Below are positions 41,400 through 61,489 of a DNA stretch of 64,000 nt, one piece after another. Source of the stretch: an uncultured Desulfobacter sp. (GTDB lineage: Bacteria; Desulfobacterota; Desulfobacteria; Desulfobacterales; Desulfobacteraceae); contig NZ_OY762229.1 in the NCBI RefSeq assembly GCF_963665355.1, positions 1,302,001 to 1,366,000 of the forward strand, written 5' to 3'. The notes beneath the pieces are model-generated. The model saw only the letters and a program-made list of their open reading frames with translations. It did not search any database and had not been told where the DNA came from. Made by a program: the position numbers and the translations under genes. Position 1 is the stretch's first letter. The number at the start of each line of letters is the position of its first letter.

Positions 41400-41497
41400 G
41401 GAAGCACGCGGCTCACTGGTGGGGCCCTCGGACTTCAAATCCGATGTGCGGGGCTGATACCCTCGCGGGTGGGTTCGATTCCCATGTGCTTCCGCCA
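41400..41497 (+). tRNA. selC: Selenocysteine tRNA (anticodon TCA)
   Basis: A 98-base tRNA with the features of bacterial tRNA-Sec: an 8-bp acceptor stem (GGAAGCAC / GTGCTTCC), discriminator G and encoded CCA, anticodon TCA at 41435-41437 within CTTCAAA, a long variable arm (GTGCGGGGCTGATACCCTCGC) and T-arm GGTGGGTTCGATTCCCAT. It reads UGA codons with SECIS elements in selenoprotein mRNAs. No selenoprotein or selA/selB gene was recognised in this window. selC genes are frequent integration sites, and the DNA to the right is indeed mobile. Confidence 0.95.
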
Positions 41498-59928: not shown

Positions 59929-59958
59929 TTGATCTTTAATAAACGACGGTGCTATACA
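59929..59958 (+). promoter_or_regulatory. Promoter of the tyrS leader
   Basis: TTGATC (59929-59934), 18-base spacer, TATACA (59953-59958). Transcription would start at about 59965, just before the leader peptide. Confidence 0.55.
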
Positions 59959-59986
59959 ACAAATCTTTAAAACATTGGAGATTACA

Positions 59987-60073
59987 GTGAAATACCACAA
60001 ATCAGCCAAACAGGCCTATTATTATTGCGGATATTACATATCCGGGTGCCGTGGTGTTTATTTACTGATCTAA
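59987..60073 (+). CDS. Tyrosine-rich leader peptide of tyrS
   Basis: A 28-residue frame, GTG start with GGAG 6 bases upstream: (M)KYHKSAKQAYYYCGYYIS, then GCRGVYLLI and TAA. Seven of 28 residues are Tyr, including YYY and YY runs encoded by TAT/TAC, far above chance. It is followed by two terminator hairpins and then tyrS, the layout of a ribosome-mediated attenuator in which scarcity of charged tRNA-Tyr stalls the ribosome on the Tyr codons and lets transcription continue into tyrS. Confidence 0.75.
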   Translation: MKYHKSAKQAYYYCGYYISGCRGVYLLI

Positions 60074-60094
60074 CATAAACAAAATCAAAATTTC

Positions 60095-60131
60095 AATGCT
60101 GCGAGCCGAAAATGCCTGCAGCATTTTTTAT
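60095..60131 (+). terminator. First hairpin of the tyrS attenuator
   Basis: AATGCTGC / GCAGCATT (60095-60102 and 60118-60125) followed by TTTTTATTTT. Its right arm TGCAGC can instead pair with GCTGCA (60139-60144) in the left arm of the next hairpin, and its loop CCGAAAATG (60106-60114) is complementary to CATTTTCGG (60148-60156) in the loop of the next hairpin. Confidence 0.7.
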
Positions 60132-60134
60132 TTT

Positions 60135-60180
60135 AAGGGCTGCAACACATTTTCGGGTTGTAGCCCTTTTTTTATTTTTT
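60135..60180 (+). terminator. Second hairpin (terminator) of the tyrS attenuator
   Basis: 12-bp stem AAGGGCTGCAAC / GTTGTAGCCCTT (60135-60146 and 60157-60168) with one G-U pair, followed by TTTTATTTTTT. This is a strong terminator just before the tyrS ribosome site (AGGAG at 60187). The long-range pairing of 60098-60114 with 60148-60164 would destroy both hairpins. Confidence 0.8.
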
Positions 60181-60199
60181 TCGCATAGGAGTATTGAAA

Positions 60200-61489
60200 A
60201 TGAATGTATTAGATATTTTAAAAGAACGTGGTTTTATCGACAACCAAACTCATGGGGAAGAATTGGAAGGCTACCTGACAAAGGAACGCAGGCATTGCTA
60301 TATAGGCTTTGACCCCACTGCCGACAGCCTTCACGTGGGGCATCTGGTTCCAATCATGTCTCTTGCGCATATGCAGCGGAATGGGCACATCCCAATAGCC
60401 CTTGTCGGAGGGGGTACAGGCCGTATAGGTGATCCGAGCGGAAAAAATGAGATGCGTCAGATGATGGCTTTAGATACCATTGAAAAAAACGTTCAAAGGA
60501 TCAAAAAACAACTGTCGAGATTTCTTGATTTTGGCGAAGGTAAGGCCATTCTGGCAAATAATGCCGATTGGCTTGCATCTCTTGAATATATTCCCTTTCT
60601 CAGGGATATTGGTCGGCATTTCAGTATAAATAAAATGATCAAAGCAGAAAGCTATCGCCACAGAATTGAATCCGAAGGTGGATTAAGTTTCATTGAGTTT
60701 AATTACATGCTGTTGCAGGCATTCGATTTTTTAACACTTTTTGACGGGCATAACTGCATGCTTCAAATGGGGGGAAGTGATCAATGGGGAAATATACTTG
60801 CAGGTGTTGAACTGATTCGCAAAAGCAGGCAAAAAACGGCATTTGGTATCACCTACAAATTGATTACCAAAAGTGACGGGAGCAAAATGGGAAAAACTGC
60901 TGGTAATGCTGTCTGGCTTGATCCTAAAAAAACATCGTCCTATGAATACTACCAATTTTGGATGAGTACAGATGACAGGGATGTGGAGCGTTTTCTATCA
61001 CTTTTTACTTTTCTCCCTATGCCGGAAATCAAGCAGGTCAACAAATTGATTGATGCCGACTTAAATCAGGCAAAAGAAATCCTGGCGTTTGAGAGCACTT
61101 GTCTGGCCCACGGCAGGGAAGCTGCCCTAAAAGCTAAAGCCTCTTCTTCTGCTGTTTTTGGGAATCGTATCATTTCTGAAAAGATTCTGCCTTCATCCAG
61201 TATTCCCAGGGAAAACAGCAATAAAAGCTCAGTTGCACTACCGACAACCTGTGTGCCCTTCAAAAAGTTTGCGAAGGGAATTCCAGCCTATGAACTTTTC
61301 TTCCACACCGGGCTTACCCAATCTGGTGGAGAGGCAAGACGCCTGATTAATCAGGGTGGAGCATATATTAATGGAGAGACGATTGCAGCCTTTGATGTAT
61401 TAGTTACTTCCGACCATCTTAAAGATGGAGAAATTATTTTAAGGGCAGGCAAAAAAAGGTTCCATAGAATTCAGATAGAAAAAGAATAA
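60200..61489 (+). CDS. tyrS: Tyrosyl-tRNA synthetase
   Basis: A 429-residue class I synthetase that charges tRNA-Tyr. HIGH motif HVGHL in DSLHVGHLVPIMSLAHMQ, tyrosine-binding region GGTGRIGDPSGKNEMR and QMGGSDQWGNILAGVELI, KMSKS motif as SDGSKMGKTAGNAVW, and a C-terminal S4-type RNA-binding domain (SGGEARRLINQGGAYINGET). The ATG at 60200 with AGGAG 8 bases upstream is the start. It is a free-standing gene in an accessory region with its own attenuator; another tyrS may exist elsewhere. Confidence 0.94.
   Translation: MNVLDILKERGFIDNQTHGEELEGYLTKERRHCYIGFDPTADSLHVGHLVPIMSLAHMQRNGHIPIALVGGGTGRIGDPSGKNEMRQMMALDTIEKNVQRIKKQLSRFLDFGEGKAILANNADWLASLEYIPFLRDIGRHFSINKMIKAESYRHRIESEGGLSFIEFNYMLLQAFDFLTLFDGHNCMLQMGGSDQWGNILAGVELIRKSRQKTAFGITYKLITKSDGSKMGKTAGNAVWLDPKKTSSYEYYQFWMSTDDRDVERFLSLFTFLPMPEIKQVNKLIDADLNQAKEILAFESTCLAHGREAALKAKASSSAVFGNRIISEKILPSSSIPRENSNKSSVALPTTCVPFKKFAKGIPAYELFFHTGLTQSGGEARRLINQGGAYINGETIAAFDVLVTSDHLKDGEIILRAGKKRFHRIQIEKE

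Follow-up and report, generated by a model that had tools for sequence, protein, structure and literature searches.

A tyrosine-codon leader before an accessory tyrS of Desulfobacter: a very probable ribosome-mediated attenuator within an order-wide group of aromatic amino acid leaders

The tyrS locus and its leader

Near the end of the window, the 64,000-nucleotide stretch of an uncultured Desulfobacter sp. genome that was analyzed here, lies a tyrS gene (60200-61489; TIGR00234, 401 bits against a cut-off of 114), the second, accessory gene for a tyrosine–tRNA ligase in its genome (G000). The two TyrS proteins of this genome are 60% identical, and both are assigned as tyrosine–tRNA ligase by NCBIfam. 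The gene and all elements of its leader are on the plus strand. Furthest upstream are two elements read by eye, a candidate -35 element, TTGATC (59929-59934), and, after an 18-nt spacer, a putative -10 element, TATACA (59953-59958); CTTG occurs at the -35 site in 10 of 11 aligned leaders, the exception being L011. A simple pattern scan for promoters and terminators listed neither type at the tyrS leader; its rules accept only loops of 3-8 and second hexamers that end in T.

The predicted leader peptide frame that follows comprises 28 codons (59987-60073), with a GTG start at 59987, a TAA stop at 60071-60073, and a Shine-Dalgarno sequence, GGAG, at 59977-59980. Its translation, MKYHKSAKQAYYYCGYYISGCRGVYLLI, includes seven Tyr, among them the putative control codons YYY (60017-60025) and YY (60032-60037), so that the Tyr-rich frame and ribosome site on which a preliminary description of this locus was built can be read directly in the sequence. 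The frame is unique in the window: among 2040 candidate frames of 15-40 codons, nested starts counted, only two contain at least seven Tyr, both of them the leader frame, and the runners-up contain four. Its Tyr codons also fit the product of the gene that they precede.

Between leader frame and gene are two predicted intrinsic terminators, present as previously described, each a hairpin followed by a U-run. Hairpin 1 (terminator 1) spans 60095-60125 with its U-run at 60124-60129, and hairpin 2 (terminator 2) spans 60137-60166 with its U-run at 60167-60173. Separately they fold at -13.6 and -19.4 kcal/mol, and the fold of 59940-60200 has a z of -4.85. In an alignment of 13 tyrS leaders (A1), 96.6% of cells in hairpin 1 and 96.2% in hairpin 2 are paired, 8 and 12 cells, respectively, are two-sided, and the covariation score of each hairpin is reached by 0 of 500 shuffles. 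One of these leaders (L015, genome G008) has a hairpin 1 without a U-run, so that only terminator 2 would be able to act there.

Five segments of the RNA are relevant to what follows. Segment 1 (60044-60059), where the leader frame ends, is the candidate antiterminating partner of the 5' arm of hairpin 1; segments A (60095-60105) and B (60117-60124) are the 5' and 3' arms of hairpin 1, B being also able to pair with segment C (60137-60146), the 5' arm of hairpin 2; and stretch D (60148-60164), on the 3' side of hairpin 2, is the partner proposed earlier for 60098-60114. Two further pairings of segment 1 were dropped, one with D or B (GGCUGC with GCAGCC) that was noticed by eye and left uncounted, and one, seen in the full fold, with an upstream stretch that lies between the candidate promoter elements and is probably outside the RNA. 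Elsewhere in the window, a tRNA-Sec gene (41400-41493) is the sole Rfam match at gathering score.

A single clade of leader-bearing TyrS

Full-length TyrS proteins at least 70% identical to that of the window are found in 10 of 19 genomes of the genus, its own included, although the copy in G001 is reported with one in-frame TAA. Three further leader-bearing TyrS come from G059, in the same family, and from G387 and G255, in another family of the order. In all 13 of these loci, tyrS is preceded by a Tyr-rich leader and a pair of hairpins; the Desulfobacter relatives among them have the same leader as the window. In a tree built from 61 TyrS (63 loci were given; L027 and L028 were too short and were left out), the 13 proteins fall on one branch, supported at 100/100. 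In G015, by comparison, there is only a 47-residue piece (L029, G015:C1:2736520-2736660), which shares 72% identity with the end of the TyrS of the window and looks as if an accessory tyrS had been lost.

The other tyrS of G000 (C2:3216589) has no such leader visible upstream. Among 47 of the 48 other TyrS loci in the tree, no Tyr-rich frame (at least 4 Tyr, 15% Tyr) was found; the upstream region of the 48th, L002, was read directly. As this frame search misses some true leaders (L049, with four Tyr, was found by reading), the absence of leaders rests also on a scan with R1, the covariance model built from alignment A1, which gave no match at E ≤ 1 in 50 other tyrS loci, that is, the 48 in the tree together with L027 and L028. 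The order-wide TyrS search took its loci from the best 30 matches, so distant leaders could be missed.

The leader-bearing gene may not be accessory in every genome. A second TyrS is present in 8 of the 13 (G000, G001, G003, G009, G012, G014, G059, and G387), and none was found in G007, G008, G011, G013, or G255, for which the other TyrS, too, served as query. Failure to find a copy is itself no proof, as not one TyrS match was obtained from G017, a genome rated 100% complete. Partial TyrS matches inside overlong open frames occur in G003, G009, and G387. No relative of the locus was found among viral contigs, and a search of genome contigs returned four loci, two of them on the same contigs as L008 and L011. 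A tyrS-type leader remnant was also seen in G017 (L085, match 1501-1643 on the minus strand, 76.7 bits), with no recognizable leader frame, a damaged second hairpin, and no tyrS match in the 3143-base locus.

What is conserved in the tyrS leaders

Retention of the Tyr codons in relatives carrying the same tyrS had been set beforehand as a test of the attenuation proposal, and they are kept in 13 of 13 leaders, with 4 to 8 Tyr each. The Tyr run varies from YY to YYYYY in steps of whole codons, and the frame that follows is not the same in every clade (ISGCRGV versus PYPAAVV); the stretch read in these different frames is conserved as RNA and corresponds to segment 1. This combination indicates that the RNA and the Tyr codons are conserved, not the later peptide.

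Within the tyrS leaders, the evidence for the two alternative pairings is uneven. For segment 1:A, 85.1% of cells are paired in the 13 leaders versus 84.2% in shuffles, a level that 92 of 500 shuffles reach, and 62 of 500 reach its covariation score. Tested leader by leader, the pairing has p < 0.05 in 8 of 12 tyrS leaders when segment 1 is shuffled and in 5 of 12 when A is shuffled; in the window's own leader it is not significant (p 0.10 and 0.16, respectively). The B:C pairing is retained in 97.4% of cells of alignment A1 and has p < 0.05 in 8 of 12 leaders. In the window's own leader it is again not significant (p 0.12), and in the window's lineage it is weak (-9.3) against terminator 2 (-18.9).

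Homologous leaders before aromatic amino acid genes

The tyrS leader belongs to a set of homologous leaders that precede aromatic amino acid genes across the order. Matches to R1 at E ≤ 0.01 occur in 248 of 389 genomes of the order, these being matches by score that were not each checked. In a sample of the class, 161 of 340 genomes match at 1e-4, with every match listed falling in the same order, and in a sample of the phylum 34 of 395 genomes match, 21 of them outside the order. A pair of tandem hairpins can be enough to reach about 37-45 bits with R1, as matches on the opposite strand show, and leader and gene were therefore verified separately. Examined in this way were 106 non-tyrS matches from the order, 46 from the searches and 60 picked by hand from the listed ranks; 97 of these, together with the 13 tyrS leaders and a second leader of the window's own genome (L127), make up a set of 111. 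Nine were left out: L085, L125, and L181; L126, which is the opposite strand of L103; L115 and L123, each with a trpE-like gene and a Trp-rich frame; L124, a pheA-like gene with a leader; L135, a DAHP synthase gene with the leader frame MGGFYFYYWYGMPVCP; and L159, trpD with a frame containing WWW.

In all 111 loci, a tblastn match (E ≤ 1e-8) to a reference tyrS, ADTH synthase, DAHP synthase, pheA, or aroE lies at most 1500 bases downstream. Representatives were confirmed by NCBIfam above cut-off as DAHP synthase (L127, L101, L116, L135, L143), ADTH synthase (L083), trpD (L159), prephenate dehydratase (L100, L093), and shikimate dehydrogenase (L182, L118); the gene at L123 is nearest to anthranilate synthase I, below cut-off. 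The leaders share aromatic codons, segment 1, terminator 1, and mostly terminator 2. The scan lists two terminators in 77 of the 111 loci, one in 33, and none in one, although at least L015 and L177 among the one-terminator loci are misses of hairpin 1 by the scan, and the single-terminator loci fit the same core arrangement. The leader at L127 (G000:C2:237466-237575; MTTRNTGKFYFYFRYYAYTGLPVLR) is of this kind, being rich in Phe and Tyr, with one terminator, and preceding a class I DAHP synthase gene.

The amino acid make-up of the leader tracks the downstream gene. Leaders of tyrS contain on average 6.1 Tyr and 0.8 Phe residues, those of the pheA group 2.9 Tyr and 6.2 Phe, and those of ADTH synthase 4.9 Tyr, 3.7 Phe, and 0.8 Trp, with L090, L145, and L097, whose frames were wrongly called, excluded from the means.

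Two further observations concern individual loci of the order. Frames with WWW or WWWW precede trpE-like and trpD genes at L115, L123, and L159. The shikimate dehydrogenase assignment at L118 begins only at residue 97, and the preceding 100 or so residues look chorismate-mutase-like, a possible fusion.

Pairing and timing across the wider set

Pairing was tested in 105 of the 111 leaders; L090, L145, L097, and L113 (the last with no terminator found) were dropped, as were L015 and L177, in which hairpin 1 is unlisted by the scan. Segment 1:A has p < 0.05 in 78 of 105 leaders with segment 1 shuffled and in 67 of 105 with A shuffled, and B:C in 64 of 74 loci with two terminators. Covariation outside tyrS was assessed in a plain MAFFT alignment of 90 of 93 loci (L082, L112, and L146 left out by hand; 89 distinct rows). 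There, 81.5% of cells of segment 1:A and 98.1% of those of terminator 1 are paired, segment 1:A shows two-sided changes at 9 of 13 pairs, and 0 of 500 shuffles reach any of five measures for segment 1:A, a comparison in which kinship alone can exceed shuffles. Mutually exclusive pairing with compensating changes is thus found in the 90 non-tyrS homologues, whereas the 13 tyrS leaders alone do not rise above shuffles. When segments were exchanged between loci to probe coevolution, own and foreign partners were separated only weakly (medians 0.23 and 0.21).

The positions of these elements are as relevant as their complementarity. The last aromatic codon lies a median of 24 nt from the stop codon, and the segment 1 duplex extends, at the median, from -19 to -1 relative to it. 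Given the normal size of a ribosome footprint, segment 1 would be covered once the ribosome has reached the stop codon but exposed while it is stalled on the earlier aromatic codons. Before B is transcribed, segment 1 is predicted to hold at least half of A in 101 of 105 leaders (12 of 12 tyrS leaders tested); at equilibrium with segment 1 free, terminator 1 is still occupied to one half or more in 73 of 105 (11 of 12 tyrS). The equilibrium fold was therefore discarded as proof of switching. As terminator 1 usually wins at equilibrium, any switch must be kinetic, and the order of formation matters. Individual leaders depart from this pattern: masking segment 1 leaves terminator 1 of L078 weak all the same (0.13), and at full length both terminators of L080 lose to another fold in both states.

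A proposed mechanism and its alternatives

The leader very probably acts as a ribosome-mediated transcription attenuator controlling the accessory tyrS, through pairing of segment 1 with A followed by pairing of B with C. The idea of Tyr-codon attenuation of this gene, already put forward in the preliminary description, draws support from comparison, namely the Tyr codons kept in 13 of 13 leaders, the hairpins, and the homologues. At the level of sequence, the comparison shows these codons and hairpins in one TyrS clade and the 1:A and B:C pairings in the wider family. The RNA would form a chain of five segments: segment 1, with which the leader frame closes; the arms of terminator 1, A and B; and those of terminator 2, C and D. 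With an ample supply of charged Tyr-tRNA, the ribosome would reach the stop codon, its footprint covering segment 1, so that A:B and C:D form and the transcript is terminated. Under a shortage of Tyr-tRNA, the ribosome would stall upstream on the Tyr codons, leaving segment 1 free to pair with A as it emerges; B, released by this pairing, would pair with C, which would explain the opening of terminator 2, and with both terminators failing tyrS would be transcribed. From the leader's arrangement we infer stalling, the kinetic order, termination, and a response to tyrosine. If true, this would suggest a reason for the retention of two tyrS genes in genomes like that of the window, one without this control and one induced on shortage.

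The same Tyr-codon attenuator could in principle work differently, with 60098-60114 and stretch D (60148-60164) forming the antiterminator that opens both terminators. This was the form first proposed, and its complementarity, 16 of 17 positions, is as described. The merged A:D hairpin (-33.4 kcal/mol) is comparable with the two terminators summed (-33.0 kcal/mol); the covariation score of the whole helix is reached by 0 of 500 shuffles in the 13 tyrS leaders; and the loop helix shows two-sided changes at 6 of 9 pairs in 13 sequences. The full helix, however, is not general: of 16 pairs, 14-16 form in only 5 of 13 leaders (L001, L007, L013, L014, L015) and 9-13 in the remaining 8, with 84.2% of cells paired in A:D and 75.0% in its loop helix (alignment A1). 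Moreover, D emerges later than A, B, and C, too late to prevent terminator 1; the merged hairpin, which stops two bases short of the same U-run, might act as a terminator in its own right; and, as no part of the leader frame is used, the ribosome would have no handle on it. As stated, then, the opening of both terminators by A:D is unsupported, A:D is probably not the main antiterminator, and this version of the mechanism is unlikely; the succession of segment 1:A and B:C has the better support. As an observation in its own right, the hairpin loops are complementary in 5 of 13 tyrS leaders (60107-60116 with 60147-60160 in the window; also L007, L013, L014, and L015), with two-sided changes, and could form either a kissing contact or a merged hairpin.

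Other explanations dispense with a stalled ribosome as sensor of Tyr-tRNA. Plain tandem terminators might insulate tyrS, the Tyr-rich frame having no regulatory role; that tandem hairpins by themselves attain about 37-45 bits with the model, on either strand, is compatible with this, but retention of the Tyr codons in 13 of 13 leaders, the match between leader amino acids and gene type in the wider family, and the covariation of segment 1:A there make it very unlikely. The short, aromatic-rich leader peptides also recall nascent-peptide arrest of the TnaC type, in which the peptide in the tunnel would sense free tyrosine or another ligand. Given that the peptide after the Tyr codons is read in different frames across clades and that its composition shifts with the gene, such arrest is highly improbable. 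A T-box or other ligand riboswitch has precedent in the tyrosine genes of Gram-positive bacteria, which are under T-box control (PMC1262725), yet no Rfam family reaches gathering score in the leader stretch or in 19 related loci, and the 14 Rfam matches at E up to 5, all below gathering scores, include no T-box. The earlier impression that the leader has no T-box is therefore upheld by the Rfam model, and a riboswitch of this kind is an extremely remote prospect. Nor do the Rfam amino acid leader families give any match at gathering score in the stretch or in the 19 loci.

Relation to known attenuators

The trp, his, leu, and pheA leaders are ribosome-mediated attenuators of gamma-proteobacteria, and a trp attenuator without a ribosome terminates by default. 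The tyrS leader shares with the gamma-proteobacterial systems a cognate-codon leader frame, mutually exclusive hairpins, and an intrinsic terminator before the gene. It differs in having an odd chain (1, A, B, C, D) with two terminators at its end, and, where termination is the default in trp, read-through would be expected here without a ribosome; such default read-through of an untranslated leader is an unusual prediction of the chain. The T-box of Bacillus tyrS responds to Tyr-tRNA charging, hence to the same signal before the same gene, but the sensor here would be the ribosome and not the uncharged tRNA itself. The Tyr-codon leader would accordingly add to the T-box another way in which a tyrS gene can respond to the charging of Tyr-tRNA.

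Attenuation before aminoacyl-tRNA synthetase genes has published precedents. The gamma-proteobacterial pheST attenuator (PMC1262725) follows the same principle before a synthetase gene. The actinobacterial trp, trpS, and leuS attenuators (PMC1262725) and that of Corynebacterium glutamicum ilvBNC (PMC11857589) likewise have an antiterminator overlapping the terminator and conserved GC-rich triples, some of them before synthetase genes; the actinobacterial systems differ in amino acids and lineage, and for the tyrosine operons of Actinobacteria PMC1262725 reports no conserved upstream RNA structure. The hisS leader peptides of Firmicutes (PMC2965389) are likewise attenuators before extra synthetase gene copies, but differ in amino acid (His) and phylum; the words tyrS, delta, and Desulf are absent from the main text of that paper. 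Searches of open-licence PubMed Central papers turned up neither Tyr-codon attenuation of tyrS nor attenuators of aromatic genes in Desulfobacterota; Lopatovskaya 2010 and Vitreschak 2004, by their titles the closest comparative works, may contain part of the finding. In an order for which the searches run gave no matching Rfam model, the leaders would provide a concrete control circuit, open to testing, for the aromatic amino acid genes.

Similar leaders outside the order

Loci were inspected in 18 of the 21 matching genomes outside the order. In every one of the 18, the gene that follows belongs to amino acid biosynthesis; it encodes DAHP synthase at nine loci, ADTH synthase at three, acetolactate synthase at four, and 2-isopropylmalate synthase and anthranilate synthase I at one each, with the call at L210 below cut-off and that at L212 made by resemblance to L219. 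Aromatic-rich frames were seen at 11 (L197, L199, L200, L201, L203, L204, L205, L208, L212, L213, and L219), the aromatic leader of L212 preceding an ADTH-synthase-like gene, and L210 and L218 have a Trp-containing frame. On balance we favor, with moderate confidence, a phylum-wide set of homologous five-segment peptide-leader attenuators in Desulfobacterota, in which the finishing ribosome would be the off-signal and an untranslated leader would read through, serving aromatic genes and probably also trpE, trpD, ilvB, and leuA, with Tyr codons recruited to the accessory tyrS.

Similar tandem hairpins are also seen outside the order before acetolactate or 2-isopropylmalate synthase genes (L207, L211, L214, L217, and L215). 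These could, from their sequences, be a branched-chain version of the same design, and at L214 a Val/Leu-rich frame was seen.
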